Below, one piece after another: positions 22,828 to 41,303 of a stretch of DNA of 41,916 nt. The position numbers and the translations under genes are program-made. Within the stretch, counting starts at the first letter, position 1. Each line of letters starts with the position of its first letter. Origin of the DNA: Desulfobacterales bacterium (GTDB lineage: Bacteria; Desulfobacterota; Desulfobacteria; Desulfobacterales; JAHEIW01); NCBI GenBank assembly GCA_030066985.1, contig JASJAN010000047.1, positions 1 through 41,916 on the forward strand, given 5' to 3'. The notes under the pieces were generated by a model, which did no database searches, was not told where the DNA came from, and saw nothing but the letters and a program-made list of their open reading frames with translations.

Positions 22828-23153
22828 TATGATCCTCCTTTCCGTTGGGCAATGGTCTTACCTATGTGGCAAAAACTTGCAACTCTCATACCATTTCATG
22901 ATCCAAAGGCGGTATCCAATGATTTTCAACGGTACCCTATTTCTGAATACCACTCGCATAAACTTTAAGTTGATTCTGATCCCACTCTCTTGTAAGAAAA
23001 TCGATACGCATAAACGCTCCATCAAGACCGGATTCAGGCGATTTACGACCGCTTTGATTGATATCATATTTGCAGAATACCAAAATCGGAAATAGATTAT
23101 ACACTGATATAATTTTTAATCGTTAAAACAACAATGTCAACTGGGGAACAGTG
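22828..23153. other. Divergent intergenic region between uspA-like gene and lutA
   Basis: 326 nt that should carry promoters for both directions. For lutA a possible sigma70 pair is TTGCAG (23070-23075) with TAGATT 17 nt later (23093-23098), and TATAAT occurs at 23108-23113. Neither is strong. TGGCAAAAACTTGCA at 22867-22881 looks like a sigma54 site but the GG to GC spacing is 9, not 10. Small ORFs here look accidental. Confidence 0.4.
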
Positions 23154-23906: not shown

Positions 23907-25323
23907 AACTGGACCTAATTTTCAGCAAAACGCTTCTCAGGCCCTGGATGATAAACAGCTACGCGAAAATTTCAAGTTTGCCATGAAAAATTTTATTCAA
24001 AAGCGCAAACTAATTTTTTCAGATGAAAGCCAAACCGAACAATTGCGGCAGATCGGAAACACCATCAAACGACGCGCCTTAAGCCAATTACCGCAATTGC
24101 TCGAACAGCTTGAGGAAAATTGCACCCGCAACGGTATCAAGGTGTATTGGGCAGAAACCACCTCGGAAGCCAATCATCAGGTGTTGCACATCATGAAGGC
24201 ACACCAGGCCACCCGTCTGGTAAAAGGCAAGTCCATGGTCTCTGAAGAAATGGGATTGAACGAATTTTTACAGGCGCATCAAATCGAGGTGGTTGAAACG
24301 GATCTGGGTGAATTCATCATCCAATTGAACGATGAGAAGCCCTCGCATATTATCGTGCCTGCGATCCATAAAAATAAGCAACAGATTGCCGACATTTTTC
24401 ACCAAAAACTGGCCGATACACCCTACACCGAAGACGTCGAGGAACTCAATGCCATTGCCCGCCAAAACCTGCGCCAGAAATTTTTTGAGGCCCAGGTGGG
24501 CTTGAGCGGCGTTAATTTCGCGGTGGCGGAAACCGGCACCCTTTGTCTGGTGGAAAACGAAGGCAACGGCCGCATGAGCACCACCGTACCGCCGGTTCAT
24601 ATTGCCGTGATGGGGTTGGAAAAGGTGGTTGAGAAATTAGCTGATATTCCACCGATGCTGCGCCTGCTGACCGGCTCGGCCACCGGCCAGTTGATCACCA
24701 CGTATGTGAACATGATTACATCGGCGCGCAAGCCCGGAGAAAAAGACGGACCTAAAGAGGTCCATCTCATCATTTTGGATAGTGGCCGCTCGGCAGTCTT
24801 ATCCGATCCGCAACTGCGCCAAACACTGCAATGTATTCGCTGCGGCACCTGTTTAAATCACTGCCCCGTATATACCCGCATCGGTGGGCACGCCTATGGA
24901 TTTGTTTATCCCGGGCCCATCGGCAAAATATTAAACCCCCAAATCGAAGGCCTAAAAAAAGCGGGCGAACTGGCAACCGCATCCAGCCTATGCGAGGCCT
25001 GCGCTGAGGTCTGCCCGGTTAAAATCCCCATTCCGCAATTGCTGCGCCGGCTTCGAAATGAAAGCTATACCGATGATTCTTTAGCAACAGTCAAGGATGG
25101 GGGTTACAAAAAAAACCTGATCGAAACCTTGGGCTGGAAGGGCTGGGAATTGATGAACACCCACCCGCACATAAATGCCATCGGAAACAAAATAATGCGC
25201 CGTTTGGGTGCCAAAATACCCAAAATCGGGCCTTTAAAGCAGTGGACGCGTTATCGTTCTGCACCCAAATTTGCTCCTAAAAGCCTGCGTCAGCTTGTTG
25301 ATGAGGAAGGAATCCAAAAATGA
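23896..25323 (+). CDS. lutB: LutB-type iron-sulfur protein, lactate utilisation
   Basis: 475 residues. The N-terminal LUD (DUF162-like) domain contains RLVKGKSMVSEEMGLNEFL and FAVAETGTLCLVENEGNGR (about residues 215-235). A ferredoxin-like 2x4Fe-4S region follows: CIRCGTCLNHCPVY from Cys313 and CEACAEVCPVKIPIP from Cys366. A C-terminal LutB-specific tail ends the protein. Proteins of this type carry electrons in the LutABC complex. Its start lies inside lutA and its stop shares bases with the start of lutC (ATGA), so the three genes form one translational unit. Confidence 0.94.
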   Translation: MSNETGPNFQQNASQALDDKQLRENFKFAMKNFIQKRKLIFSDESQTEQLRQIGNTIKRRALSQLPQLLEQLEENCTRNGIKVYWAETTSEANHQVLHIMKAHQATRLVKGKSMVSEEMGLNEFLQAHQIEVVETDLGEFIIQLNDEKPSHIIVPAIHKNKQQIADIFHQKLADTPYTEDVEELNAIARQNLRQKFFEAQVGLSGVNFAVAETGTLCLVENEGNGRMSTTVPPVHIAVMGLEKVVEKLADIPPMLRLLTGSATGQLITTYVNMITSARKPGEKDGPKEVHLIILDSGRSAVLSDPQLRQTLQCIRCGTCLNHCPVYTRIGGHAYGFVYPGPIGKILNPQIEGLKKAGELATASSLCEACAEVCPVKIPIPQLLRRLRNESYTDDSLATVKDGGYKKNLIETLGWKGWELMNTHPHINAIGNKIMRRLGAKIPKIGPLKQWTRYRSAPKFAPKSLRQLVDEEGIQK

Positions 25324-25988
25324 ATGATGCCGCTCGTGATCAAATCCTGAAACGGCTGCATGCGGCCACCAAAGGGCAACCCGTGGATATCCCTGAGGCG
25401 GCTGATCTGCCGGTGGAACCACTCGAAACGCCTCAAAAAATTGATAAGCTTAAAGCATTAATGGAAGCTGTCCGCACCGAGGTGCATGTTGTTGAGGGCT
25501 CAGATTGGACAACACCCTTAAAACAAATCCTAAAAGAGCGGAATCTCAAAACGTTACTCTACGCTCCGGGCACACCCGTAGGCGACCAGCTGCAGGAGGC
25601 ATGGACAAATGATGCCAACATATTGCCCGCACTGGTCACTTATGATGGTTCGATTGAAGATTTTAAGGAACAGCTTTTTGGTATCGATGCGGCCGTCACC
25701 TCGACGATCGGCGGCATTGCCGAAACCGGTGTCCTGATTCTGTGGCCCGATGAAAAAGAACCGCGCCTGATGTCTCTGGTGCCGCCGATTCACATTGCCA
25801 TATTGCAGGCCGATAAAATTCACACCACTTTTGCCGAAGCCATGCAGGCGGGCGACTGGGTCTCAAAAATGCCGACCAATGTGGTGTTGATATCCGGCCC
25901 CTCGAAAACAGCAGACATCGAGCTAACTTTAGCCTTTGGTGTGCATGGGCCCAAGGAGCTAGTCGTCATTATCATCAAAAACGAATAA
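25320..25988 (+). CDS. lutC: LutC-type LUD-domain protein, lactate utilisation
   Basis: 222 residues, one LUD (YkgG/DUF162) domain. The typical segment is GGIAETGVLILWPDEKEPRL (about residues 135-155) followed by MSLVPPIHIAIL. The C-terminal KTADIELTLAFGVHGPKEL is the family signature. The ATG overlaps the lutB stop (ATGA). It has no cysteines of its own for clusters and is thought to assist LutAB. A palindromic element starts 5 nt after its stop. Confidence 0.92.
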   Translation: MNDAARDQILKRLHAATKGQPVDIPEAADLPVEPLETPQKIDKLKALMEAVRTEVHVVEGSDWTTPLKQILKERNLKTLLYAPGTPVGDQLQEAWTNDANILPALVTYDGSIEDFKEQLFGIDAAVTSTIGGIAETGVLILWPDEKEPRLMSLVPPIHIAILQADKIHTTFAEAMQAGDWVSKMPTNVVLISGPSKTADIELTLAFGVHGPKELVVIIIKNE

Positions 25989-25992
25989 ATTC

Positions 25993-26150
25993 GGTTATGC
26001 AGGAATCTAAAGTGCGGCATACAGAACCACGAAGAGCACGAAGGACACGGAAGAATAAAAGAAAAATTTCGTGTTTTTCCTTTGTGATCTTCGTGTTCTT
26101 CGTGGTGAAAATAATACCAGATATATCCAACTGTGGTTTCCCGGGTAACC
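25993..26150. repeat. 158-bp palindromic element, family B, copy 2
   Basis: Terminal GGTTA (25993-25997) and TAACC (26146-26150) enclose the same inner palindrome as 12675-12831, with CCACGAAGAGCACGAAGGAC on the left and TCTTCGTGTTCTTCGTGGT on the right, and the same words near the ends (GGTTATGCAG on the left, TTCCCGG on the right). It separates lutC from the FAD/Fe-S dehydrogenase gene and ends 16 nt before that gene's ATG. Confidence 0.88.
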
Positions 26151-26166
26151 GCTTAATTTATTATCT

Positions 26167-28992
26167 ATGCTAACTGACAATTACCGCCAATTTTACACTG
26201 ATCTGCGCGCCTTTATTCCCGACCGGCGGCTGTTCACCGATCCACTGCGCACGCTGACCTACGGCACAGACGCCAGTTTTTACCGCCTGATACCCAAAAT
26301 TGTTATCAAAGCCAATAGCGAGGCTGAAGTATCCCGTATTCTGCACACGGCTGATCAACACGGCATTCCGTTGACCTTTCGGGCTGCCGGCACCAGTCTT
26401 TCGGGTCAGGCGGTCACCGATTCTGTTTTAGTGCTCTGCGGCGGCAACTGGAACAGCTATGAGATCCTGGACAACGGCAGGCGCATCCGTCTGCAGCCCG
26501 GTGTCATCGGGGGGCACGCCAATCGCTATTTGGCGCCTTTCAGCCGCAAAATCGGCCCCGATCCAGCATCGATCAATTCCGCTATGATCGGCGGCATTGC
26601 CGCCAACAACGCCAGTGGCATGTGCTGCGGTGTGGCCCAGAACAGCTACCAAACCATTCACAGCATGCGGATTCTGTTTCATGATGGAACACTGCTGGAT
26701 ACGGCTGATGAAAAAAGCCGCGCCAATTTCAAACAAAAGCATCCGGCGCTGATAGACAGCATCTTACAACTGGCTGAGAAAGCACGCAGCAATGCCGCGC
26801 TAGCAGACCGCATCCGCCAAAAGTTTAAAATTAAAAACACCACCGGCTACAGCCTAAATTCGCTGGTTGATTTTAATGACCCTTTTGACATCATGTTGCA
26901 TCTGATGATTGGATCCGAAGGCAGCTTGGGATTTATATCCGAAGTCACCTACGATACGGTTGTCGAGCACCCCAATAAGGCCAGTGCCTTAATGATTTTT
27001 CCGGATATTGCCAATGCCTGCAGTGCCGCCGCCATACTAAAGGAAGGCCCGGTGGATGCCGCCGAGATCATGGATCGGGCCGCATTGCGATCGATCCAGG
27101 ACAAAGCGGGCATGCCGGCGTATATCAAGTCTTTCTCAGCGGAAACCACTGCCTTATTGGTGGAAACACGGGCGCACGCAAACGATGAATTGCAGCACAA
27201 CATCGAAACCGTCAAGCGTTCGTTGGCAGAACTTCCCACCGAGCGTCCAATTGAATTTACCGATAAGGTCTCTGAATACACCCAGCTGTGGAATATACGC
27301 AAGGGCCTGTTTCCGGCTGTGGGGGCGGTGCGGGAAATCGGGACCAGTGTGATTATCGAAGATGTCGCCTTTCCGATTGACCGCCTCGCCGATGCCACCT
27401 TAGAGCTACAGGACCTGATGGCCGCATACCATTATGATGAAGCCATCATTTTCGGTCATGCCCGCGAAGGCAACCTGCATTTTGTATTTACCCAGGATTT
27501 TGCTACTCAAAAAGAAGTGGATCGCTATTATCGTTTTATGGACGATGTTTGCCGCATGGTGGTTGAAAAATATGACGGTTCACTGAAAGCGGAGCACGGT
27601 ACCGGTCGCAATATGGCACCCTACGTCGAAATGGAATGGGGAGCCGAGGCTTACGGGTTAATGCAACAAATCAAAAACATCTTTGATCCCAAAAATCTGT
27701 TGAATCCCGGTGTGATCATCAACACCAACCCCAATGTGCATGTGGAGAATCTGAAACCGCTGCCACCCACCAATCCCATCGTCGATCGCTGCACAGAATG
27801 CGGTTTCTGTGAGGCGTATTGCCCATCGCGGGATCTGACGCTCACCCCGCGGCAACGCATTGTGGCCCAACGAGAAATCTCACGTCTCAACACGACCCGG
27901 GAAAATCCGCAGCGATTGGATCAGTTTTTAAAAAGCTATGATTATCTGGGAGAACAAACCTGCGCGGCGGATGGCATGTGCTCGGTGGGCTGCCCCATCG
28001 ATATCAATACCGGCGAACACACCAAAGAGCTTCGCCACAGCCAGCAGGGACCCACGGCGCATCGCGCAGCAGCATTGATGGCCCGTCATTTCGGGACGGT
28101 TGCCACTGCAGTCCGTCTGGGTCTCAAAATGGTGGATCACGCCCATCATCTACTGGGTACCCGCAGCCTGGAACGCATCACTTCAGGATTGCAGAAGCTG
28201 AGCAACGGCTGGATGCCAGGCTGGAATCCTTATGTGCCCGGCGCTGCCGGAAAAATCCAGTCGTCCAACCCTCAAACCAATGGCTTGCCCCAGGTGGTTT
28301 ACTTTCCAAGCTGTGTCAGTCGAACGATGGGCACCGCCCGTGGAGATCCGGATCAGGAATCGCTGCCATCGGTCACAATGCGATTGCTGAAAAAGGCCGG
28401 TTACGCAATGGTTTTTCCGTCGAACATGCAGCGACTTTGCTGTGGCACGCCGTTTGAAAGCAAAGGGTTTAAGGAGCAGGCGGACATCAAATTAAAAGAA
28501 CTGGAAAACGCCTTGCTGCAGGTATCTGATGACGGACGCATTCCGGTCTTGTGTGATACCAGCCCCTGTCTGTATCGCATGCGCCAGTGTATGGACCCGC
28601 GTATCAAACTTTATGAGCCTTCAGAATTTATTTATGATTTTCTGATGGAGCGTCTGACGTTTACCCCCTTAGATACCACCGTTGCCCTGCATCATACGTG
28701 CAGCAACATGAAAATGGCCTTAGAGCATAAACTGCTGGCCGTTGCGCAGGCTTGTGCTCGCGATGTTGTTGTGCCCGACCTGGTGGGCTGTTGCGGCTTT
28801 GCGGGCGACCGCGGATTTACTCATCCAGAGTTAAATCAATCCGCCCTGCAGGAATTAAAAGCGGCCGTCAATGATCAATGTGCCGCAGGATATTCGACCA
28901 GTCGCACATGTGAAATCGGCTTATCCCAGCACAGCGGATTGTATTATAAGTCGATTGTATATCTGGTGGATCAGTGCACCAGTGCTATCTAA
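26167..28992 (+). CDS. FAD-linked oxidase fused to Fe-S/CCG domains (D-lactate dehydrogenase type)
   Basis: 941 residues. The order is: FAD-binding PCMH-type domain (about 35-180, RAAGTSLSGQA and MIGGIAANNASGMCCG), FAD-linked oxidase C-terminal domain (about 265-515, FGHAREGNLHFVF, EHGTGRN, FDPKNLLNPG), two cluster motifs (Cys542 in CTECGFCEAYCPS and Cys599 in CAADGMCSVGCPI), and a C-terminal pair of CCG motifs (Cys758-759 and Cys875-876). This matches large FAD/4Fe-4S D-lactate or D-2-hydroxyacid dehydrogenases of the YdiJ/Dld-II type. It probably passes electrons from the hydroxyacid to a quinone or other carrier. No Shine-Dalgarno sequence precedes the ATG; the family B palindrome ends 16 nt upstream. 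Confidence 0.92.
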   Translation: MLTDNYRQFYTDLRAFIPDRRLFTDPLRTLTYGTDASFYRLIPKIVIKANSEAEVSRILHTADQHGIPLTFRAAGTSLSGQAVTDSVLVLCGGNWNSYEILDNGRRIRLQPGVIGGHANRYLAPFSRKIGPDPASINSAMIGGIAANNASGMCCGVAQNSYQTIHSMRILFHDGTLLDTADEKSRANFKQKHPALIDSILQLAEKARSNAALADRIRQKFKIKNTTGYSLNSLVDFNDPFDIMLHLMIGSEGSLGFISEVTYDTVVEHPNKASALMIFPDIANACSAAAILKEGPVDAAEIMDRAALRSIQDKAGMPAYIKSFSAETTALLVETRAHANDELQHNIETVKRSLAELPTERPIEFTDKVSEYTQLWNIRKGLFPAVGAVREIGTSVIIEDVAFPIDRLADATLELQDLMAAYHYDEAIIFGHAREGNLHFVFTQDFATQKEVDRYYRFMDDVCRMVVEKYDGSLKAEHGTGRNMAPYVEMEWGAEAYGLMQQIKNIFDPKNLLNPGVIINTNPNVHVENLKPLPPTNPIVDRCTECGFCEAYCPSRDLTLTPRQRIVAQREISRLNTTRENPQRLDQFLKSYDYLGEQTCAADGMCSVGCPIDINTGEHTKELRHSQQGPTAHRAAALMARHFGTVATAVRLGLKMVDHAHHLLGTRSLERITSGLQKLSNGWMPGWNPYVPGAAGKIQSSNPQTNGLPQVVYFPSCVSRTMGTARGDPDQESLPSVTMRLLKKAGYAMVFPSNMQRLCCGTPFESKGFKEQADIKLKELENALLQVSDDGRIPVLCDTSPCLYRMRQCMDPRIKLYEPSEFIYDFLMERLTFTPLDTTVALHHTCSNMKMALEHKLLAVAQACARDVVVPDLVGCCGFAGDRGFTHPELNQSALQELKAAVNDQCAAGYSTSRTCEIGLSQHSGLYYKSIVYLVDQCTSAI

Positions 28993-29037
28993 TAACTGAA
29001 TTTTCGTGCAAAGTTTAGATATTTCGGAGAAATCACC

Positions 29038-30423
29038 ATGGAAGAATTCAACGCCGATCAAATTGCGGCATTGGCTAAAATTGTGTCTGCCGACCGTTTT
29101 TCAAACGGTCAGTCCAACCGCGAACTGCATTTGCATGATATATCCGCCCATCGCGGTCGTCTGCCGGCGGGTATCATTTGGCCGATAACCACGGCAGAAG
29201 TGTCCGATATCCTTGCCTGGGCTTATGATCAGAATGTGCCGGTTACGCCCTGGGGTGCAGGAACCAGCACAGAGGGCAACCCTGTACCGATCCATGGAGG
29301 ACTGGTTATTGACATGACCCAAATGAATAAAGTGCTGGACATTCGCCCCCAGGATTTACAAGTCGATGTTCAACCGGGCGTTTTGCGCAAAGAGCTCAAC
29401 CGAATGGTCGGAGAGCAGGGGTTGTTTTTCCCTCCCGACCCGGGGGCCGATGCCACTATCGGTGGTATGATCGCCAACAATGCCTCGGGCGTTCAAACCG
29501 TCAAATACGGCGCCACCAAAGACTACGTCATGAAACTCACGGTGGTGCTGCCCGACGGCAGCATTATCCACACGGGTTGCAAAGCCCATAAATCTTCTTC
29601 TGGTTATGACTTATCCCGCCTGTTCGTGGGGTCTGAAGGCACCCTGGGGGTTGTAACCGAAGCAACCTTGCGGCTGACCGGCATCCCCAGCCATCATCTT
29701 GCGGCCACCATAACTTTTGGCAAACTGAATGAAGCCTCTCGAGCGGTGGCGGCCATGATCGGTTCTGGATTGGAACCCGCCGCGCTGGAACTACTCCCAC
29801 CCCAGCTGATCAATTTAATGAATCGTGAAAAGAATCTTGGGCTTCCGGAGGCGCCATCGCTGTTTTGTGAATTTCATGGCATCAGTGCAGCCACCCTGCA
29901 GGAAACCGCTGATCTGGCCAAAGAATTGTGCGAGGACTGTGGGGCCACGGGATTTCAGTTTGGCGTCGAGGCCAATGAACGGGCGCGGCTCTGGCGCGCC
30001 CGCCACGAAGCCTGGGAAACCATTCACCGCGCCCACCCGGGCAAAGAAACCCTGATTGTGGATGCCGCCGTGCCCATCTCACAATACCCGGAAATGATTG
30101 TCTTCTCTCAGAAACTGGTTGATGATCACCAGGTTTCCGGTTATGTCTTTGGTCACGCCGGCGATGGAAATTTGCATGTGGTCCTGGTGGGTGATCCGGA
30201 TAACGATAAAGAGTGGTCACTGCTGGAAGAGATCAATGCCCAAATCGTCACCCGCGCGGTGCAACTGGGCGGCACCTGCACCGGCGAGCACGGCATTGGC
30301 ATCGGCAAGCGCAAGTTCATGCAGCTCGAGCATGGTGACAGCTATCAACTCATGCGCCGGATCAAGGATCTGATCGATCCCAAAGGGTTGCTGAATCCGG
30401 GGAAGATCTTTATGGAGCCTTAA
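29038..30423 (+). CDS. GlcD-like FAD-binding 2-hydroxyacid dehydrogenase
   Basis: 461 residues. The FAD-binding PCMH domain (about 40-215) has PWGAGTSTEGNPVPIHGG and GGMIANNASGVQTVKYGAT. The C-terminal FAD-oxidase domain has FGHAGDGNLHVVL, TGEHGIGIGKRKFM and IDPKGLLNPGKIF. It belongs with GlcD of glycolate oxidase and the cytochrome-type D-lactate dehydrogenases. No GlcE or GlcF gene is adjacent, so it may use the Fe-S partner next door or act alone. GGAG lies about 10 nt before the ATG. It starts 45 nt after the large FAD/Fe-S dehydrogenase gene. Confidence 0.92.
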   Translation: MEEFNADQIAALAKIVSADRFSNGQSNRELHLHDISAHRGRLPAGIIWPITTAEVSDILAWAYDQNVPVTPWGAGTSTEGNPVPIHGGLVIDMTQMNKVLDIRPQDLQVDVQPGVLRKELNRMVGEQGLFFPPDPGADATIGGMIANNASGVQTVKYGATKDYVMKLTVVLPDGSIIHTGCKAHKSSSGYDLSRLFVGSEGTLGVVTEATLRLTGIPSHHLAATITFGKLNEASRAVAAMIGSGLEPAALELLPPQLINLMNREKNLGLPEAPSLFCEFHGISAATLQETADLAKELCEDCGATGFQFGVEANERARLWRARHEAWETIHRAHPGKETLIVDAAVPISQYPEMIVFSQKLVDDHQVSGYVFGHAGDGNLHVVLVGDPDNDKEWSLLEEINAQIVTRAVQLGGTCTGEHGIGIGKRKFMQLEHGDSYQLMRRIKDLIDPKGLLNPGKIFMEP

Positions 30424-32271: not shown

Positions 32272-33909
32272 CTACCGCTTCGCTTTTCTTTTGACCTCCA
32301 AGGCCTTTAAATCCTTGCGCATAATTTTGCCGGTGGCGGTCATCGGCAGCTCATCGACAAATTCTATCTCCCGCGGGTACTCATGGGCTGCCAAACGAAC
32401 CTTAACAAAGTCTTTAATACCGGCGGCGAGATCATCATCGGCAGCAACTTCGGGCTTGAGAACAATAAAGGCTTTGACAATCTCGGTGCGCACCTCATCC
32501 GGGCTGCCAACAACGGCGACCATCCCCACATCCGGATGCTTCATTATACAGTCTTCGATCTCAGCCGGACCAATGCGATATCCCGCACTGGTGATCACAT
32601 CGTCCTTGCGGCCCACAAACCAAAAATATCCTGCTTCGTCCTGTTTGGCCAAATCCCCCGTCAGGCACCAATCCCCCACAAATTTATCCGCCGTGGCCTG
32701 CGGATTTTTCCAGTATTCTAGAAACATAACCGGATCGGGTCGGCGAACAGCCACCTCACCGGCCTCGCCAGGCGGTACCGGCCGGCCTTCACCATCCACC
32801 ACCGCCAAAGTGTGCCCCGGAACGGCCCTGCCCATCGAACCGGGCAGATTTTGCATGATGGCCGCGCAGTTGCCTACGATCAAATTGGCTTCGGTTTGGC
32901 CGTAAAATTCATTGATGGTCAAATCGAAAACCTCGCGGCCCCATTCCAGCAGCTCTTCGCCCAATGTTTCGCCCCCGCTGCCGATACTGCGCATATTTAA
33001 GGTATATTGATTACGCGGGTTTTTGACCTGGCGCATCAGCTTCAGCGCCGTGGGGGGCATGAAAGCGTTGCGGATGTTGTATTTGGCAATCAGATGAAAG
33101 GCTTCTTCCGGGTCGAATTTTTTAGCACGGTGCGCCAGCACGGGGATGCCATGGTGCCAGCTGGGAAAGAGCACATCGATCAACCCGCCAATCCAGGCCC
33201 AATCCGCCGGGGTCCAGAAAAAATCGTTTTCCTGCGGGAAAAAATTGTGCGGAAACTCCACTCCCGGTAAATGGCCCAACAGCACCCGGTGCGCATGCAA
33301 GGCCCCTTTGGGCGGGCCGGTCGTGCCCGATGTATAAATGATTAAGGCCGGATCATCGGCCCGGGTTTTAACCGGCGTAAAATCGGTGGATCCTTTTTCA
33401 ATTAGTTTTGCGAAATCCTGCACCTGATCCTGTTTTTCACCGCGGGTGACGATGATCACCTCCAGATCCGGCAACTGGTCCCGAATCTCTATAATCTTGG
33501 GCAGGTTGGCACTGTCGGTGACAACGCCTTTGGCTGCGCTGTTGGCCAGACGATAGGCCAGGGCATCGGTGCCGAACAGGGTGAACATGGGGATGGCAAC
33601 AGCGCCGATTTTGTAGGCGGCAATATGGCTGATGGCCGTTTCCGGGCATTGGGGCAGCAGGATGCCGAAGCGATCTCCCTGCTTTATACCGCTGACCAGC
33701 AGACCATTTGCCAGCTGGTTGGATAGACGCTTTAAATCGGCAAACGTATATTTTTCAACCTGGCCGTTTTCATTTTCATAAACCAGTGCCAGACGGTTGC
33801 GCTGGTCGGCCCAGCGATCACAAATGTCCACACCGATATTGTAATACTCGGGAATTTCCCAACGGAAAGTATCAAATACGTCAGCATAAGTTTTGCCGGG
33901 CTTTAACAC
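32272..33909 (-). CDS. AMP-forming acyl-CoA synthetase (medium-chain/acetyl-CoA synthetase-like)
   Basis: 545 residues from a GTG at 33907-33909, chosen because AGGAG lies 8 nt upstream and homologous sequence begins at KPGKTYADVFDTFRW; the longer frame from 33981 would overlap the preceding gene. Motifs are IIYTSGTTGPPKGALHAH, FYGQTEANLIV, CLTGDLAKQDEAGYFWFVGR and the catalytic lysine in TATGKIMRKDLK. The sequence PEYYNIGVDICDRWA and the domain spacing resemble AcsM/medium-chain or aryl-CoA synthetases. It follows the LivK-like gene at a distance of 78 nt, so the ligand bound by that protein, or by the TRAP system, may be the acid it activates. Confidence 0.9.
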   Translation of the reverse strand: MLKPGKTYADVFDTFRWEIPEYYNIGVDICDRWADQRNRLALVYENENGQVEKYTFADLKRLSNQLANGLLVSGIKQGDRFGILLPQCPETAISHIAAYKIGAVAIPMFTLFGTDALAYRLANSAAKGVVTDSANLPKIIEIRDQLPDLEVIIVTRGEKQDQVQDFAKLIEKGSTDFTPVKTRADDPALIIYTSGTTGPPKGALHAHRVLLGHLPGVEFPHNFFPQENDFFWTPADWAWIGGLIDVLFPSWHHGIPVLAHRAKKFDPEEAFHLIAKYNIRNAFMPPTALKLMRQVKNPRNQYTLNMRSIGSGGETLGEELLEWGREVFDLTINEFYGQTEANLIVGNCAAIMQNLPGSMGRAVPGHTLAVVDGEGRPVPPGEAGEVAVRRPDPVMFLEYWKNPQATADKFVGDWCLTGDLAKQDEAGYFWFVGRKDDVITSAGYRIGPAEIEDCIMKHPDVGMVAVVGSPDEVRTEIVKAFIVLKPEVAADDDLAAGIKDFVKVRLAAHEYPREIEFVDELPMTATGKIMRKDLKALEVKRKAKR

Positions 33910-33987
33910 GGTGATTTCTCCTATTGCGACCTGAATAAGAAAAGACCACGTCGTGAATAACGCAGCCATTTCGAAAGACACGGATTT

Positions 33988-35226
33988 TTACTGTTTTCTA
34001 GCAGCCTTTATTTCGGCCTCGGGTCGCCAGTTTTCGGGTGCTTTTAGTTCCAGCAGCTCGTGATAGATGGGGAAGGGATAGTTAGGATCATCGGCCACCC
34101 GCCCGAAGTAAGTTGAACAGCTTAACTGATTGTCAATCTTGCGGAAAAAAAGCTTTCCGCGGGTGGTATCAATGGTCATTCCCTTCATGGCATCTTTGAC
34201 CTTTTCGATATCGATGCTGCCTGCTTTATCAACACCCTGTTTGAGGGCATGAACGCCGTCATAGGCCATCACTACCCAATCGCTGGGATAGGTGCCAAAC
34301 TTGGCCTTATAGGTATCCACCAATTTGGCCATCATAGGGATATCCAGGTGGGCGAAAAATGGCGCCCGGGTTCTACCATATTGGTCTCTGCGAATGCTTC
34401 TGGCTTGCGATTTCAATTCGGTCAGGCTAATTAGACCACCCGGATATTCGACTTGCTTGAATAATCGATAGTCTCTAGCATCTCTCATCCAGAAGGCATT
34501 GTCCGTCCCGGCAATGGATCCAAGGACAAAATCAGGCTTTTGGGCCAGAATATCAACTATAAAGGAATTAAACCGTGACTGACCCAGTCTTGGCCAGTAA
34601 GTGCTGACCAATTCTAGATTTGGTGCGATCTGTCTTAAAAGATCGACCTGCACCTCTTGACTGGAACGGCCCCAGGCATAGTCGGAAGCAACGGTCACAA
34701 ACTTTTTCCAATTATTCTTTTTGGCCAAATTGGCAACGCCGACAACAACTGCCTTTGACAACATATATGTATTGGGGACAACCGAATAGGTATAGGGGCT
34801 GGGGTCAATTTTGGTGATATTTTCAGAGTTACTGATCGTTGCAATGTGCAACACTCTGTTTTTACGGCATATGGGTTTGATGGCCAATGCCGTCGCACTG
34901 GAATAGGTTGCGATAATCGTTTGAACCTTATCGGTTTGAATCAGATTTTCGACCACCTGTCTGGCGACGTCCGGTTTGGTCTGGGTATCTCTGATAAAAA
35001 GTCTAATCCGATGCGCTCCCAGAAGTCCGCCCAATGCATTGATCTCATTGACGGCGATTTCGATGCCTTCTACTGCCTCCTTTGAATAAGGAGCGCCGGT
35101 TCCGGAAAGGCCCAGAGCAACGCCGAGATGGAAAGCTTCGCCGGCAAAAGCGCTGTTGCAGAGCATAACGCCCGGCAAGATGATTAACAAAATGGCAGTT
35201 ATTGCGATGGAAGATTTGGTTTTCAT
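33988..35226 (-). CDS. LivK-like periplasmic binding protein of branched-chain amino acid ABC type (orphan)
   Basis: 412 residues from the ATG at 35226, which has GAGGAGG 6 nt upstream; the ATG five codons earlier lies inside that ribosome binding site. Signal peptide about residues 1-28 (IAITAILLIILPGVMLCNSA, then FAG). The mature protein is a Peripla_BP_6 (type I) fold: LGVALGLSGTGAPYSKEA, IAVNEINALGGLLG and IRLFIRDTQTKPDVARQVVE. No LivHMGF genes are near, so the channel is encoded elsewhere or the protein is a sensor. This family binds branched-chain amino acids, amides and often aromatic acids. It lies between TRAP and acyl-CoA ligase genes. Confidence 0.9.
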   Translation of the reverse strand: MKTKSSIAITAILLIILPGVMLCNSAFAGEAFHLGVALGLSGTGAPYSKEAVEGIEIAVNEINALGGLLGAHRIRLFIRDTQTKPDVARQVVENLIQTDKVQTIIATYSSATALAIKPICRKNRVLHIATISNSENITKIDPSPYTYSVVPNTYMLSKAVVVGVANLAKKNNWKKFVTVASDYAWGRSSQEVQVDLLRQIAPNLELVSTYWPRLGQSRFNSFIVDILAQKPDFVLGSIAGTDNAFWMRDARDYRLFKQVEYPGGLISLTELKSQARSIRRDQYGRTRAPFFAHLDIPMMAKLVDTYKAKFGTYPSDWVVMAYDGVHALKQGVDKAGSIDIEKVKDAMKGMTIDTTRGKLFFRKIDNQLSCSTYFGRVADDPNYPFPIYHELLELKAPENWRPEAEIKAARKQ

Positions 35227-35325
35227 GAGGCGCCTCCTCATCTAAGGTCACGTTGTGAGCAGTGTGCTCTTAAATAATGGTCGGCGACCTTTGGTCTCCC
35301 GGGTATGACTGGGCTGTATTATGGT

Positions 35326-36711
35326 TTAGCCGTAAGCCAAAGCCGGCAGCCAGATGACCAGCTGCGGCCAGATAGCGATGATCACCAGTCCGATCAGCTG
35401 CAGAATGATAAAAGGCACCACGCCTTTATAAATATCGACAAGTTCCACTTCAGGCGGCGCAACACCTTTTAGATAGAAAAGGGCAAATCCAACAGGAGGC
35501 GTTAAAAATGAGGTTTGCAAACTTACGGCAATCAGGACCACAAACCAGACCAGTTCCGGATTATCCACGACGCCGTGCCCCTCGATCTGAAACCCGAGGC
35601 CAGAGACAACCGGTGCAATCAAGGGTAAAACGATTAACGTGATTTCAATCCAATCCAGAAAAAAACCGAGCAGAAATACGGCCCCCAGAATAACCGCCAT
35701 GATGCCATATGGTCCCAGCGGGATTCCGGTGAGAATTCTTTCGATGAATTCATCCCCCCCGAGACTGCGCAGCACGAGGGCAAAACAGGTCGCCCCCAGA
35801 AAAATAGCAAAAATATAGGCGGTGGTGTTAAAGCAGGCCTTCATGACTTCGACAATGACCTTGAAATTAAGCCGCTTGTTCATGGCCGCCAAGATGGTGG
35901 CGCCCAGGGCGCCGACGCCGCTGGCTTCAGTGGGGGTAGTGATGCCGGCAAATATAGAGCCCAGCACGGCAATAATCAATCCCGCAGGCGGCAAAATACT
36001 TTTGAGAACATCCCAGAGCATGCGCCAGGCGATGGGCTGCCGATTGGGGTCCAACGGCGCTGCCTTGGGATTCAGCAAGCTAAAGATCAAAATATAGGCA
36101 ATATACAAGGACCCTAAAATGACACCGGGTACAACCGCACCCATAAACAAATCGCCCACAGACAACCCCAGCTGATCGGCCATAATGACCAGCATAATAC
36201 TGGGCGGTATCAAAATACCCAGAGTGCCGGAGCCGGCGATGGTCCCCAGTGCCAGCGTTTTGGAATAGCCTTGCTTCATCATGGCCGGCAAAGACAACAG
36301 CCCCAAAAGCACCACCGAAGCCCCGATAATACCGGTCGAAGCCGCCAGGATGATGCCGATGGTCGTAACGGTGACGGCCAACCCGCCGCGCACTTTACCA
36401 AAGAGACTCTGCATGGACTTCATCATGCTTTCGGCGATGCCGGAACGATCGAGCATCAGACCCATAAAGATAAACATGGGCAGGGCCACCAGGACCCAGT
36501 TATCCATGAATTTGAAAATCCGGTTAATCACCATGCCCAGGGTCAGGTAATCCAGACCTGTCAGGGTGCCAAAATACTGATCGGCAACCCAGCCCACCAG
36601 GGTAAATATCATGGCCACGCCCCCCAACACCCAGGCAACCGGAAAGCCGGTGAACAGGAGGCTGACAAAGGTCAGAAACATGGCGATTACGAGATAATCG
36701 TTAAATTCCAT
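35326..36711 (-). CDS. dctM: TRAP transporter large permease (DctM family)
   Basis: 461 residues with about 12 hydrophobic helices. Family landmarks are LLFTGFPVAWVLGGVAMIF, VALPMFIFMGLMLDRSGIAE, GTLGILIPPSIMLVIMADQL, and FLLGFFLDWIEITLIVLPL near residue 350. It is the sodium- or proton-coupled channel subunit of a tripartite transporter. The gene starts 3 nt after the small-subunit stop. The large size and the TakP-like binding protein put it in the group that moves 2-oxoacids, hydroxyacids and related carboxylates. Confidence 0.94.
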   Translation of the reverse strand: MEFNDYLVIAMFLTFVSLLFTGFPVAWVLGGVAMIFTLVGWVADQYFGTLTGLDYLTLGMVINRIFKFMDNWVLVALPMFIFMGLMLDRSGIAESMMKSMQSLFGKVRGGLAVTVTTIGIILAASTGIIGASVVLLGLLSLPAMMKQGYSKTLALGTIAGSGTLGILIPPSIMLVIMADQLGLSVGDLFMGAVVPGVILGSLYIAYILIFSLLNPKAAPLDPNRQPIAWRMLWDVLKSILPPAGLIIAVLGSIFAGITTPTEASGVGALGATILAAMNKRLNFKVIVEVMKACFNTTAYIFAIFLGATCFALVLRSLGGDEFIERILTGIPLGPYGIMAVILGAVFLLGFFLDWIEITLIVLPLIAPVVSGLGFQIEGHGVVDNPELVWFVVLIAVSLQTSFLTPPVGFALFYLKGVAPPEVELVDIYKGVVPFIILQLIGLVIIAIWPQLVIWLPALAYG

Positions 36712-36714
36712 GGT

Positions 36715-37242
36715 TTAGGTTCTCCTCAGAGAAAGAAAGGTGCGCACGGCTCTTGAAATGGTGGCGACTCCCAGCAGGAAGAAGGTGATGGGGATAATCC
36801 CTTTGATCGCCCAGCGCCAGGGCAGCCCCATGGGAGCATCAGAGCGTTCATTGACCCGCCAGGATTCCCAGACAAAATCCAGGCTCTGATGGAAGATGAT
36901 AATGATAAAGGGCAACAACAGAACGACGGTACCAAACAGATCCCAGCGGTATCTCCATTTCTGGGAAAGACGCGCATGGATGATGTCCACCCGGATATGG
37001 GAATCCATCATCTGGGCATAAGAAGCCCCGAACATGATCCCTAACGCATATAGATGCCACTGCAATTCTTCCAGTATAACCAGGCCACGGCCGAAGCCAT
37101 AGCGCAAAATGACCTGCAGAATAATGACAAGAACTAGAATGCCGTTGGTCCACATGACCACGTGTCCGATGGAACGAATGAATTTATCCAGGGCATCACA
37201 AAATTTGCTGGGGGCCATATCCTGTTGGGTTTCTGCGCTCAT
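36715..37242 (-). CDS. dctQ: TRAP transporter small permease (DctQ family)
   Basis: 175 residues with four predicted helices (VVMWTNGILVLVIILQVILR, ELQWHLYALGIMFGASYAQM, LFGTVVLLLPFIIIIFHQSL, and a final one near FFLLGVATISRAV). The motif EELQWHLYALG and the HIRVD segment after helix 2 are typical of DctQ. It links the binding protein and DctM. AGGGAG lies about 6 nt before the ATG. Confidence 0.92.
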   Translation of the reverse strand: MSAETQQDMAPSKFCDALDKFIRSIGHVVMWTNGILVLVIILQVILRYGFGRGLVILEELQWHLYALGIMFGASYAQMMDSHIRVDIIHARLSQKWRYRWDLFGTVVLLLPFIIIIFHQSLDFVWESWRVNERSDAPMGLPWRWAIKGIIPITFFLLGVATISRAVRTFLSLRRT

Positions 37243-37374: not shown

Positions 37375-38526
37375 TTATTGTTTCGGCGGTTTGGGACGCG
37401 GCAAAAATCCATAGGATTGCCACAGGGCATAATCCTTACGGAAGGCTGAAAAATCATCCCAGACCTTTTTGAAAAACGGGTCTTTGGCGGATTGCTCGGC
37501 GGCAACTTCTTCCCAGGCCTGTTTGAAGGTCGCCAGCATTTCATCGGACCAGTACATGTTGGTCACACCGTTATTTTCGACGTTTTCCTTCATCGCCTGC
37601 CATTGAATGGCTTCGGTGTAGGCAAAGGCATCCGCCGTGGCGGCCTTGCACATCATTTCAATAACCGCACGCTGGTGATCCGTCATGCCGTTCCAGGCAT
37701 CTTTATTGATCAGCAGCTCAAAAGTTGTGGCCTGCTGATGCCAGCCGGGAAAATAATTATATTTGGCAATCTTTTGAAAGCCCAGCAGTTTATCGATGGC
37801 GGGCATCGAAAATTCAGTGGCTTCGATCGCTTTTTTCTCCAGAGCCGGAAAAATTTCGCCACCCGGAATCAAACTGACCGAAGCGCCCAGTTTCTGCATG
37901 GCCTGGCCGCCCAGCCCAAAAAAGCGCATCTTCAGGCCTTTGAGATCATCCGGTGAATTAATGGGCTTGGTAAACCAGCCTGAGGTCTCAGGTGCGATGA
38001 TGCCGCACAGCAGGACTTTAACATTGTAGCCGTGGCTGTCGTACATCTCCTGCCACAGTTTCATACCGTTGCCATAATACAGCCAGGCCAAAAATTCGCC
38101 GGTTTCGGGGCCAAAGGGGATGGCTGTAAAAATCGGCGAAGCCGGTATCTTGCCGGCCCAGTAACCTGAAACGCTGTACCCGCCATTGATTTTACCTTCG
38201 GATACCGCATCCAGGATTTCAAACGGCGCTACCAGTTTGCCCGGTTCGTAGACCTTCATTGCAATCGTACCGGCACTGGCGAGTTCAATTCGGTCTGCAA
38301 CCCATTTGATGGTTGAACCCAAACCCGGAAGACTGGTGGCAAAGCAGATCGGAACCTTTATCAAAACTTTCTTTGCCTCAGGAGCTTTGGGCTCCTCCGC
38401 CGGAGCTGCTGCCGCAGCAGGCTTTTTTTCTTCTTCCTGTTTTGCACAGCTTAAAAACAATCCAGACAGCACAAAACTGGCGGCAAGAAGAAGGATTAAC
38501 GTTTTCATAAAAGCGTTTTTCTTCAT
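37375..38526 (-). CDS. dctP: TRAP transporter substrate-binding lipoprotein (DctP/TakP-like)
   Basis: 383 residues from the ATG at 38526 (AAGGAG upstream); an in-frame ATG ten codons earlier lies before the ribosome binding site. The signal ends in the lipobox LFLSC (Cys27), followed by a linker rich in Lys, Glu, Ala and Pro (residues 30-55), so the protein is tethered to a membrane. The core has MRFFGLGGQAMQKLG, SLIPGGEIFPALEKKAIEAT and YNYFPGWHQQATTFELLIN, the pattern of the TakP (2-oxoacid-binding) branch. The TakP segment that usually reads WVGPW is FSMPA here, so a ligand-contacting tryptophan is missing and the substrate may differ. Confidence 0.92.
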   Translation of the reverse strand: MKKNAFMKTLILLLAASFVLSGLFLSCAKQEEEKKPAAAAAPAEEPKAPEAKKVLIKVPICFATSLPGLGSTIKWVADRIELASAGTIAMKVYEPGKLVAPFEILDAVSEGKINGGYSVSGYWAGKIPASPIFTAIPFGPETGEFLAWLYYGNGMKLWQEMYDSHGYNVKVLLCGIIAPETSGWFTKPINSPDDLKGLKMRFFGLGGQAMQKLGASVSLIPGGEIFPALEKKAIEATEFSMPAIDKLLGFQKIAKYNYFPGWHQQATTFELLINKDAWNGMTDHQRAVIEMMCKAATADAFAYTEAIQWQAMKENVENNGVTNMYWSDEMLATFKQAWEEVAAEQSAKDPFFKKVWDDFSAFRKDYALWQSYGFLPRPKPPKQ

Positions 38527-38698
38527 CACGATTCTCCTTTTTTGAAATGTCAACATTAGAAAATAATCACCTGCACAACGTAGCGCTAACTATCGATAAC
38601 CACCCCCTTTTTGTCAAGGAATAAAATATGAGTTCAAATGATCGGCCTGATTTTAACAATAAACCGTTTAGAATTTAGTGAATTGCGCTATGAGATCC

Positions 38699-39556
38699 CT
38701 ATTCGATTTTTTTTTGGGCATACGTACGCACCATTCCCCCATCGAATAAAAGGTCGCCGCCGATAAGATATTTGGCAAAGCGGGAAAATCCAAAAATAAA
38801 AAGGTTTGCCACCTCGATGGGTGACATCATTTCCTTGATACGGGAGTAACCCATCATGACTTCTCGCACAACCTCTTCGGGCGTAATGCCGCGTTGTTCA
38901 GCCTGGGCAGGGATTTGATTTAATGTCAGAGCAGTTTTAACAAACCCGGTACTGACGGTGAAGGAACGAATTCTGCCCTCGCCTTCGGCCGCAATTGACT
39001 GGGTCAAGGCGCGCAGTCCGAACTTGGTAATGTTGTAAACCGGTTTATTGAGGGTGCTAATGTGGGCATGCACGGATGCCATGTTGCCGATAGCGCCAAC
39101 CCCGTCACTGCTTTTTTTGATGTGCGGCAAAGTTAGCTTGGATAGATAAAACGGTGCCCGCAACATCAATCTTTGCATGTAATCATATTTTTCCATCGGA
39201 AAATCGTCGACCGAATCAATGTGCTGAATACCGGCAATATTGGCCACAAATTTAATGCTGCCAAGTTTGGCGGCTTCAGCGACCGCATGCTCGATATCCG
39301 CATCTTGGCATAAATCAGTCTTTACAAAAATCATCTGGCCGCCCATATCCCGGGCCATTTTTTGCGTTTTTTTCCCCTCCTTTTCATTAAAATCCAAACC
39401 GACAGTCATCAAATTGTTGGCAGCGGCGGCGATGGCTGTCGCCCTGCCGATACCGGTTCCTGACCCGGTAACGATACAAACGTTGTGGGTATTGAAATTA
39501 TCATCTTCGAGAATCAATATGTCTTCACGCTTGATCTCGGGCTCTCGGATGTCCAT
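38699..39556 (-). CDS. 3-hydroxybutyrate dehydrogenase-like short-chain dehydrogenase
   Basis: 285 residues. A 24-residue N-terminal extension precedes the SDR core (VCIVTGSGTGIGRAT, residues 26-40; Asp55 suggests NAD). Catalytic Ser161, Tyr174 and Lys178 (in VYNITK) are present. LNQIPAQAEQRGITPEEVV matches the substrate-lid region of BdhA (D-3-hydroxybutyrate dehydrogenases). The catalytic Asn of classical SDRs appears to be replaced: the aligned position is Met131 in RLMLRAPF. The activity may therefore differ from BdhA. GGGAGG precedes the ATG, and a sigma54-type promoter lies about 58 nt upstream. It is the first gene before the TRAP operon, separated from it by 172 nt. Confidence 0.83.
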   Translation of the reverse strand: MDIREPEIKREDILILEDDNFNTHNVCIVTGSGTGIGRATAIAAAANNLMTVGLDFNEKEGKKTQKMARDMGGQMIFVKTDLCQDADIEHAVAEAAKLGSIKFVANIAGIQHIDSVDDFPMEKYDYMQRLMLRAPFYLSKLTLPHIKKSSDGVGAIGNMASVHAHISTLNKPVYNITKFGLRALTQSIAAEGEGRIRSFTVSTGFVKTALTLNQIPAQAEQRGITPEEVVREVMMGYSRIKEMMSPIEVANLFIFGFSRFAKYLIGGDLLFDGGMVRTYAQKKIE

Positions 39557-39613
39557 AGGGGTCCTCCCTTAAAGAAGCTCAGATTCGATTGCACGGTGGG
39601 TTAGAATTAAATC

Positions 39614-39630
39614 TGCAAATTCTGGACCAA
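39614..39630 (-). promoter_or_regulatory. Sigma54 (-24/-12) promoter for the BdhA-like gene
   Basis: On the minus strand the sequence reads TTGGTCCAGAATTTGCA, with GG and GC separated by exactly 10 bases, a -12 box TTTGCA and a -24 box TTGG. Transcription would start near 39603 and give a leader of about 46 nt before the ATG at 39556. The divergent neighbouring gene encodes a sigma54 activator, which strengthens the call. Confidence 0.65.
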
Positions 39631-39722
39631 ACGTTTTAGTGAAATCTTACCGGTGCCGATAGCGGCAATACTGCTCTAGTGCCCACTATATGGCTGTTTT
39701 ATACTTTGGATGCATTTTTTTC

Positions 39723-39751
39723 TCGACAATTTCAGCGGTTGTTTGTATAGG
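39723..39751 (+). promoter_or_regulatory. Sigma70-like promoter for the sigma54 regulator gene
   Basis: TCGACA (39723-39728) and TATAGG (39746-39751) are 17 nt apart. Transcription would start near 39758, exactly where the TGTATCAAT repeat begins, so a protein bound there could block it. Predicted from consensus matching only. Confidence 0.4.
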
Positions 39752-39757
39752 CTGATA

Positions 39758-39793
39758 TGTATCAATCTATATACATGTTGCCATATTGATACA
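39758..39793. promoter_or_regulatory. Inverted repeat, candidate enhancer/operator for the sigma54 regulator
   Basis: TGTATCAAT (39758-39766) and ATTGATACA (39785-39793) are perfect 9-bp inverted copies 18 nt apart. A second overlapping dyad TGTAT/ATACA occupies 39758-39775. The pair lies about 155-190 nt upstream of the predicted sigma54 start site of the BdhA-like gene, a normal enhancer distance, and overlaps the predicted start and leader of the regulator's own gene. Confidence 0.6.
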
Positions 39794-39806
39794 GAAGGGG
39801 GATTCG

Positions 39807-41267
39807 ATGAAAACCGGCTCAAAAATAAGTCGGGCATCCAAAAACGGTATCCCGTTAGAGTTGCAAGCAGATCCTGATGGGTCTGTGGTACTTAAAGATC
39901 AATTGGAAGCCTATCAACTGGTCTTTGAAAGCATTTATAACGGCGTCATGGTCACCGACGCTGAAGGGATCATTACCCATTTTAACAAACCTTACGGTCA
40001 GTTTTTGGGGCTTGATCCAGCGAATCAGATTGGCAAGCACTGCACCGAAGTGGTTGAAAATACACGCATGCACATCGTGGCCAAGACCGGAAAGGCCGAG
40101 ATCAACCAAACCCAGCGGATCAAGGGGCAAAGCATGGTCGTTCAGCGGATTCCGATCAAAAAAGACGGTCAAGTGATTGCGGTTTTCGGACAGGTCATGT
40201 TCAAAGATGTCAAAGATGTCACCAATCTGGCCAATCGACTTTCATTGCTGGAATCTAAAGTCAAACACTATGAAGAGGAACTGATCAATCTGAGATCCAC
40301 CCGCTATACCTTTGACAGCATTGTGGGCAGCAGCCGGGTCATCCGCGAGTTGAAGAAGGAAGCCCTGAAAGCGTCGGTCAATCAATTTCCGGTGTTGATT
40401 ACCGGTGACAGCGGTACCGGCAAGGAGCTTTTCGCCCAGGCCATCCATCACGCCAGCCCGCGTAAACTATACCCTTTTGTGCGGATCAACTGCTCGGCCA
40501 TACCCAAAGATCTGCTGGAATCCGAGTTGTTCGGCTATGAAAAAGGTGCTTTTACCGGTGCCAAATCCGAGGGCAAACCTGGTAAATTTGAGATCGCCAA
40601 CCAGGGTACAGTTTTTTTAGATGAAATCGGAGACCTGCCGCTGGTGATGCAGCCAAAGCTTTTACGGGTGGTAGAAGAAAAGGAGTTTGAACGCGTCGGG
40701 GGCACGAAGATCATCCGCTCAGACTTTCGCGTCATCGCGGCCACCAACCAAGACCTTGAAGACATGCTTGCCGATGAGCGCTTTCGAAAGGATCTGTTCT
40801 ACCGGCTAAATGTCATACCTTTGCATATCCCGCCGCTGCGGGAGCGCAAAAGCGATATCGTGCCGCTGGCCCAGCACTTTTTAAAGCAAATGGCCAAAGA
40901 GGCGAATCTTTCAGAAATTTCACTGGACAATGATGCTGCCGCAGCATTGAAAAAATACACCTGGCCCGGAAATGTCCGTGAATTGTTAAACGTTTTGGAA
41001 AGAGCCCTGTCTTCAATTGAAGGCGACATCATTCATTTGGGCGACCTGCCTTTTTATGTGAGCCGCATGCAGAAAAAGCTTCCCGAGCAGAATCAGTCTA
41101 CAATGGACATCAAAGGGGTGCAGGCGCGAGCGGAAAGAGATGCCATTCAATATGCCTTAAAGGAAACCCGCCATAATAAAGCGCAGGCAGCCAAACTCCT
41201 GGGGATTCATCGCACGCTTTTGTATAAAAAAATGAAAAAATACAATATTGCGCTCAAACCCGAATAA
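39807..41267 (+). CDS. PAS-AAA+-Fis sigma54-dependent transcriptional activator
   Basis: 486 residues from the ATG at 39807, which has GAAGGGGG upstream; a TTG seven codons earlier is inside the inverted repeat. Order: PAS domain (about 33-135), short coiled-coil (140-165), AAA+ domain (about 170-400) with Walker A GDSGTGKE (200-207), the sigma54-contacting loop GAFTGA (247-252), Walker B VFLDEIGD (269-276) and FRKDLFYRLNV, then a Fis-type helix-turn-helix (about 445-480, HNKAQAAKLLGIHRTLLYKK). The PAS domain probably senses a small acid or acyl compound. It is divergent from the BdhA-TRAP-ligase genes, which it most likely controls, and convergent with the CoA-transferase gene. Confidence 0.95.
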   Translation: MKTGSKISRASKNGIPLELQADPDGSVVLKDQLEAYQLVFESIYNGVMVTDAEGIITHFNKPYGQFLGLDPANQIGKHCTEVVENTRMHIVAKTGKAEINQTQRIKGQSMVVQRIPIKKDGQVIAVFGQVMFKDVKDVTNLANRLSLLESKVKHYEEELINLRSTRYTFDSIVGSSRVIRELKKEALKASVNQFPVLITGDSGTGKELFAQAIHHASPRKLYPFVRINCSAIPKDLLESELFGYEKGAFTGAKSEGKPGKFEIANQGTVFLDEIGDLPLVMQPKLLRVVEEKEFERVGGTKIIRSDFRVIAATNQDLEDMLADERFRKDLFYRLNVIPLHIPPLRERKSDIVPLAQHFLKQMAKEANLSEISLDNDAAAALKKYTWPGNVRELLNVLERALSSIEGDIIHLGDLPFYVSRMQKKLPEQNQSTMDIKGVQARAERDAIQYALKETRHNKAQAAKLLGIHRTLLYKKMKKYNIALKPE

Positions 41268-41303
41268 CCAACTTAAACCTGTAGAGCAATTGATACAGAT
41301 CGT

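Follow-up and report, generated by a model that had tools for sequence, protein, structure and literature searches.

According to the excerpted text of Kazakov et al. (2015, PMC4641369), genes of one-component enhancer-binding proteins (EBPs) of Desulfovibrio vulgaris are located divergently from a sigma54 promoter with an upstream activating sequence (UAS), the motif groups of these proteins show TGT/ACA half sites separated by 9, 11 or 12 bp, and most of their regulons comprise one to four operons. TGT-N12-ACA sites of EBPs and divergent control regions are already known from the excerpts of this paper and of a study of sigma54 regulons in the Clostridiales (PMC6615313). The locus described here is situated on the 41,916-nt contig JASJAN010000047.1 of a Desulfobacterales bacterium (the window, i.e., the whole stretch of DNA analysed) and comprises a gene encoding a PAS-AAA+-Fis type sigma54 activator, a divergent dehydrogenase-TRAP transporter operon and a putative control region in between. 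It resembles the D. vulgaris EBPs of PMC4641369, as excerpted, in the divergent UAS-sigma54 layout and in the TGT-N12-ACA class of its sites. Abutting pairs of sites are not described in the excerpted D. vulgaris work, in which the word "tandem" is absent, and its one-component EBP motif search extended from -650 to +50 relative to translation starts; sites past a regulator stop codon thus lay outside that scan (PMC4641369). PrdR, treated in PMC6615313, is the best NCBIfam match of the regulator studied here, which scores 462.4 bits against NF041552 at a cut-off of 795; the targets of the PrdR system differ from those found here, and operators past the stop codon are not mentioned in the excerpt.

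Three candidate operators flank the regulator gene. We consider it likely that the abutting pair upstream of the gene serves the adjacent activator as an enhancer outward and as an autorepressor site inward, and that the third operator, downstream of the gene, serves autoregulation. Comparison of loci established the predicted sites and how widely they are conserved, as well as the facing sigma54 promoters and their distance to the pair. The elements are as follows.

39758-39775, plus strand: operator A, 18-bp dyad TGTATCAATCTATATACA, 0 mismatches to TGTAKC-N6-KMTACA, 21.3 bits on the 18-mer profile
39776-39793, plus strand: operator B, abutting and weaker 18-bp dyad TGTTGCCATATTGATACA, forming the latter half of the 36-mer, 18-mer profile score 15.7 bits
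39614-39629, minus strand: predicted sigma54 -24/-12 promoter TGGTCCAGAATTTGCA, facing the dehydrogenase-TRAP operon, predicted start site about 39603
39723-39751, plus strand: sigma70-like promoter TCGACA-N17-TATAGG (39723-39728 and 39746-39751) from a four-locus alignment, predicted start site about 39758
39807-41267, plus strand: PAS-AAA+-Fis sigma54 activator (486 aa) with PF00158, PF02954 and PF00989, GAFTGA present
41280-41297, plus strand: candidate operator D, TGTAGAGCAATTGATACA, 12 nt past the regulator stop codon in a 36-nt convergent gap, 18.3 bits

In the proposed mechanism, the activator would occupy the two abutting 18-bp operators and, upon a signal sensed by its PAS domain, would loop the DNA to sigma54-RNA polymerase located about 142 bp away, thereby activating the dehydrogenase-TRAP-binding protein-acyl-CoA synthetase operon. 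From a second pair, it would also turn on a second acyl-CoA synthetase operon. Since the upstream pair covers the start site of the predicted sigma70 promoter of the regulator, its occupancy would repress the regulator, and the operator past the stop codon would act in autoregulation, either as a roadblock or as a loop partner. From the comparison we infer that the regulator binds these sites, activates the operons and represses its own gene, and likewise what the third site does.

The element TGTATCAAT-N18-ATTGATACA at 39758-39793 occurs once in the window (none in 100 shuffles) and is unique in the 5.07-Mb genome at up to 3 mismatches. The original prediction had treated it as a single N18-gapped site. 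Its coordinates hold, but the 36-bp element is better described as two head-to-tail, abutting 18-bp dyads, each approximately TGTAKC-N6-KMTACA: the inner columns forming the junction TACATGT are among the strongest-conserved parts of the profile, and the outer arms of the 9-N18-9 repeat correspond to the left half of dyad 1 and the right half of dyad 2.

Conservation was assessed in 80 orthologous loci remaining after removal of copies (79 scan loci and L085); counts of 81 include the window. The scan of genome contigs supplied the best 80 of 198 relatives as loci, with weaker ones outside, and six family genomes, among them the window's own, were searched too. L001, L082, L083, and L084 were removed since they duplicate the window or L002/L003. 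L053, in which the regulator is cut by the contig end, was left out of the 36-mer counts, and L028, whose contig ends, out of the counts of the downstream operator. Start codons were picked via a simple Shine-Dalgarno score. The loci are not independent and include near copies, e.g., L031, L040, and L041. The 18-mer profile was derived from the first dyad alone, and the 36-column profile was seeded with 31 sites resembling the repeat of the window and then refined; due to this refinement on the same loci, a held-out test was made. Two different sets of 62 loci occur below: the orthologs above 10 bits (62 of 80), and the loci above 15 bits (61 orthologs and the window), which were used for the counts of facing sigma54 sites, spacing and sigma70 promoters.

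The pair of the window scores 44.8 bits on the 36-mer profile, and pairs above 10 bits are present in 62 of the 80 orthologous loci, compared with a maximum of 13.0 bits in 800 simulated regions, 99% of which stay below 5.5. Held out via tree folds, 56 of 80 loci exceed 16 bits versus 0 of 800 shuffles. Averaged over the loci, dyad 1 reaches 19.2 bits and dyad 2 7.9 bits on the 18-mer profile. In the consensus of 62 sites the TGT and ACA half sites are 12 bp apart, which fits the TGT-N12-ACA class of EBP motifs. The TyrR box TGTAAA-N6-TTTACA is likewise an 18-bp dyad for a Fis-type helix-turn-helix (HTH) domain, with the same half-site spacing and different inner bases; TyrR of E. coli is not known to be a sigma54 activator. 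Of 26 loci of paralogous activators whose recognition helices differ, L087 alone has an 18-mer above 13 bits. The site thus accompanies the orthologs and is almost lacking in the paralog loci, an indirect sign that the adjacent regulator may bind the pair. In L059 and L064 the layout is inverted, with the pair situated 315-355 nt upstream, past the sigma54 site, and a single operator by the start codon.

Taken alone, TGGTCCAGAATTTGCA is unremarkable, since equally loose or looser sites (up to 3 mismatches) occur 191 times in the window versus 226 expected. The weight of the sigma54 promoter call is therefore carried by the conservation of a facing site and not by its sequence alone. Within 300 nt past the pair, a sigma54 site that points away from the regulator occurs in 46 of the 62 loci, compared with 2 on the other strand and 1.6 in shuffles; under a strict criterion, the numbers are 27 facing, 0 on the other strand and 0.4 by chance. 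The promoter that had been predicted to face the dehydrogenase-TRAP genes thus has a same-facing counterpart in most loci with the repeat, and the comparison of orthologous gaps that had been proposed as a check recovers both the pair and the -24/-12 site.

Over the 46 loci, the pair and the -12 G are 104 to 242 nt apart (142 in the window). Thirty-five of these distances fall into four clusters (110-115, 131-135, 142-146, and 155-159), the other 11 outside. The best period is 10.9 with a Rayleigh R of 0.55 (jittered null 0/5000; 0.0004 with like pairs removed; 0.028 on 29 unique distances), and 15 tree-independent pairs give p 0.036 at period 10.9 and 0.010 at 11.1. Spacing between pair and promoter is thus likely phased at about 11 nt, a behaviour that an enhancer would be expected to show. 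The conserved pair, the conserved facing promoter and the apparently phased spacing agree with the view of the repeat as the enhancer of a divergent sigma54 operon. This part of the mechanism is textbook; the loci represent a natural experiment in which the spacing between enhancer and promoter was altered on many occasions, apparently by one helical turn at a time.

The start-side sites of the previously described control region were confirmed, but the third operator at 41280-41297 (D-site) had been overlooked. Exact TGTAKC-N6-KMTACA 18-mers occur twice in the genome, and these two flank the regulator gene on both sides. A site above 9 bits near the stop codon is present in 40 of 80 orthologous loci (41 of 81 with the window) versus 12 of 2739 control windows from the same loci, and above 14 bits in 38 loci versus 7 control windows. 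The D-sites are located between -27 and +55 of the stop codon, and 13 of 40 begin exactly at -2 with the TAG stop codon inside the site. The 40 D-sites average 19.6 bits and thus match dyad 1, though the profile came from dyad 1 alone. On the tree, this trait requires 17 changes versus 27.4 with shuffled labels. In case of L074, L077, L079, and L080, one operator is situated upstream and two are located past the stop codon with their starts separated by 22 bp, without an abutting upstream pair. Desulfosarcina widdelii PP31 (L026), represented by a complete chromosome, possesses both the pair and a D-site.

Several other functions of the D-site were considered and rejected. As for a role as a UAS, sigma54-like sites from -300 to +700 of the stop codon occur in 7 of the 38 loci that have a D-site and in 10 of the 38 that lack one, at varying positions and strands, a count made without shuffle control. 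Neither does it appear to be an operator of the next gene: the next open reading frame (ORF), with ORFs called by length only, is oriented +20/-18 with and +23/-15 without a D-site. In the window, no stable fold of an intrinsic terminator was found (z 1.32). A general habit of sigma54 activator genes is not indicated either, since a search of 26 paralog loci for sequence words common to both sides of the gene yielded L087 as the single, marginal case (15/18 versus 11-14 in its shuffles). The D-site thus seems to belong to the regulator gene and not to any sigma54 promoter, with autoregulation, as roadblock or loop partner, as its most likely role; shielding against convergent transcription is a possibility. 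It is a conserved operator at the end of a regulator gene with no sigma54 promoter for it to act on, and the search range of the published reconstruction, as excerpted (PMC4641369), would miss such sites. Among the titles and abstracts listed in literature searches on sigma54 regulons, on autoregulation via roadblocks or operators and on stop-codon operators, with subscription papers mostly outside the scope, none reported a D-type site for such a regulator.

A roadblock is possible, even if we would not call it probable. The bound regulator would halt RNA polymerase at or before its own stop codon, and the nonstop mRNA would be cleared via transfer-messenger RNA (tmRNA). In the excerpts of the lacI literature, LacI bound at lac O3 halts transcription of its own gene, which results in a truncated, SsrA-tagged product (PMC3711431), and lacI mRNA undergoes trans-translation (PMC3985003). 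The likeness to LacI/O3 as excerpted (PMC3711431) consists of a regulator site at the end of its own gene used for self-repression; in contrast, LacI does not belong to the EBPs and O3 lies within the control region of lac, whereas the predicted D-site shows no link to a sigma54 promoter downstream. The genome encodes tmRNA, and together with the position of the D-sites at the stop codon this is compatible with a roadblock of the LacI-O3 type. The strength of the D-sites, equal to that of operator A (19.6 versus 19.2 bits), and the lack of clear phasing in 34 distances between the upstream pair and the D-site (R 0.08-0.24 at periods 10.0-11.5) point in the same direction. Assuming that RNA polymerase stalls about 16 nt before an obstacle, the stop codon would be incomplete in case of the 32 of 40 D-sites that start at +17 or earlier, but 8 of 40 sites, at +18 at least, would leave it transcribed, and the gene end is also the first place without coding constraint. 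Extended to a widespread sigma54 activator family that brackets its own gene by a start-side pair acting as enhancer and repressor and a stop-codon site making nonstop messages, the idea becomes speculative and is unlikely to hold as a whole; if true, it would represent LacI-style self-limitation in an enhancer-binding protein.

Somewhat doubtful is a loop in which an activator oligomer bridges the D-site and the upstream pair, so that the regulator gene is looped out and autorepression or enhancer occupancy is strengthened. Two strong sites about 1.5 kb apart, presumably for one oligomeric protein, would suit such a loop, but helical phasing between pair and D-site is unclear, though loops of 1.5 kb do not require phasing. 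D-sites are commoner where an operator abuts the start codon (15 of 17 loci versus 23 of 50 others, p 0.004 uncorrected). This association was not retained, because it weakens at other cut-offs (p 0.036, 0.028, and 0.114) and in the tree control (4.5 versus 0.5 pairs, median p 0.22).

The inward role of the pair as a probable autorepressor site is read from its position relative to the predicted promoter of the regulator. TATAGG ends 6 nt before the pair, and the predicted start site therefore falls approximately on the first base of the pair. The promoter scan, which requires a T at position 6 of the -10 element, did not list TCGACA-N17-TATAGG; in L002, L003, and L085, the -35 and part of the -10 element are kept although most of the gap diverged. 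A -35-like TNGACA within 70 nt ahead of the pair occurs in 34 of 62 loci versus 3.75 expected, preferentially at -34/-35 relative to the pair (12 loci; -35 in the window) and at -21 (9 loci), in which case the -10 element would fall within the operator. The -35 word of the originally predicted sigma70-like promoter is thus found again ahead of the repeat in relatives. The whole promoter upstream of the pair is only modestly enriched; a higher figure (33 of 62 versus 15% in shuffles) resulted when the -10 element was allowed to extend 12 nt into the operator. Among the 67 scored loci, there are 17 whose last operator terminates 9-13 nt ahead of the start codon. Overlap of the operator with promoter and ribosome-binding site of the regulator therefore appears common, not universal. 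With the pair starting at the predicted sigma70 start site and often located near the start codon, it is probably the autorepressor site of the regulator, as had been proposed.

It is quite unlikely that the pair is purely an enhancer whose closeness to the regulator promoter is a by-product of the short divergent gap, without autorepression. In favour of this reading, the distance to the sigma54 promoter is seemingly in phase and that to the regulator start ranges from 9 to 302 nt, and in five loci (L004, L007, L018, L027, and L080) the nearest operator is at least 147 nt away from the start codon. However, an operator lies at most 40 nt from the start codon in 45 of the 67 scored loci, TNGACA prefers two places ahead of the pair, and the D-site has no evident enhancer explanation.

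Besides these five distant operators, several observations weigh against the combined role of enhancer and autorepressor site. The pair is missing from 18 of 80 loci, several of which have one 18-mer, and in L013, L015, L016, L019, L022, L050, and L081 no 18-mer above 9 bits was found near the regulator start. The latter regulators have the recognition-helix stretch GIHRTLLYKK despite the missing operator, and their targets may be located elsewhere. The sigma54 site of the window deviates from the consensus at 2 of 11 positions, and a facing site is missing in 16 of 62 loci. Among the 15 tree-independent pairs, phasing fails at period 10.5 (p 0.76); due to this discrepancy with the values at 10.9 and 11.1, helical phasing is graded as likely, short of proof. 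A site for integration host factor (IHF) between sigma54 promoter and pair was rejected, as its consensus shows no enrichment (1 of 61 loci, 0.45 expected). A full sigma70-like promoter (at least 9/12) ahead of the pair is present in only 18 of 62 loci (shuffles 11%).

A hairpin formed by the repeat in the leader RNA of the regulator is highly improbable, since, despite perfect 9-bp arms beside the ribosome-binding site and a leader of L002 that folds better than most shuffles (z -1.99, 6/200), the fold of the window is no better than shuffles (z 0.43), and internal dyads, single 18-mers elsewhere and the D-site would be left unexplained.

The enhancer role of the pair is extended by a second predicted target in the window, for which the elements are listed below.

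22004-22039, minus strand: second operator pair, 34.0 bits (20 shuffled windows at most 16.1)
21851-21866, minus strand: sigma54-like site TGGCATAGATTTCGCT for the second target, at a distance of 151 nt to the pair at 22004-22039
20232-21776, minus strand: second acyl-CoA synthetase (PF00501), predicted second target
22265-22282, minus strand: single 18-mer operator, 18.9 bits, flanked by the gene of a universal stress protein and the second pair

The acyl-CoA synthetase operon behind this pair is predicted to be a second sigma54 target of the regulator. Two congeners (genomes G005 and G003; loci L158 and L159) keep the second pair and a sigma54-like promoter with gaps of 150 and 142, and the 18-mer of 22265-22282 is identical in both, upstream of their second pair. 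This 18-mer is located 20 nt past the stop codon of the universal stress protein gene, about 21 nt past it in L159 and about 107 nt past it in L158. In G001, and by eye likewise in G002, the ortholog of the second synthetase is located directly after the dehydrogenase gene, and the synthetase therefore appears to be part of one regulon in either arrangement. The predicted target set comprises TRAP uptake, the dehydrogenase and two acyl-CoA synthetases.

Exact 18-mers did not delimit a regulon genome-wide: 10 matches versus 8 for the reversed pattern were obtained in three relatives, and 85 versus 94 at one mismatch in the own genome. Single sites are thus distinguished by position and conservation only. 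In G002, whose best regulator match is only 39% identical, an operator pair is located 42 nt ahead of the dehydrogenase start (L164, 3850-4000), with runs of N nearby; in this stretch no sigma54 site with at most 2 deviations was found. This pair is possibly a control region that remained after loss of the regulator.

The regulator is a bacterial enhancer-binding protein: its AAA+ sigma54-interaction domain matches PF00158 (E 1.4e-68), PF02954 (Fis-type HTH) and PF00989 (N-terminal sensor) are above cut-off, GAFTGA is found in 80 of 81 regulator proteins including that of the window, and RpoN is encoded in the genome (PF04552, 207.8 bits). Given the regulator ATG at 39807, the divergent gap comprises 250 nt (39557-39806), as previously described. 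On its other side the following genes are located.

38699-39556, minus strand: short-chain dehydrogenase (SDR; PF13561, PF00106), leading the divergent operon
37375-38556, 36715-37242 and 35326-36711, minus strand: TRAP transporter DctP (PF03480), DctQ (PF04290) and DctM (PF06808)
33988-35241 and 32272-33981, minus strand: periplasmic binding protein (PF13458) and acyl-CoA synthetase (PF00501)

The name BdhA assigned earlier to the dehydrogenase is not supported, since it reaches 179.6 bits versus the curated NCBIfam cut-off of 258 for 3-hydroxybutyrate dehydrogenase and is also below two further NCBIfam BdhA cut-offs (176.3 versus 307.05 and 142.8 versus 340 bits). A divergent SDR match (at least 60% identity, at most 700 nt) is present in 32 of 81 loci, and several other loci have TRAP or ligase genes of lower identity at the divergent position. 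At 23151-30423, the window contains genes encoding cysteine-rich CCG, LutB/LUD-domain and FAD-linked oxidase proteins, which suggests that oxidation of a lactate- or glycolate-like hydroxyacid is encoded adjoining the putatively regulated operons.
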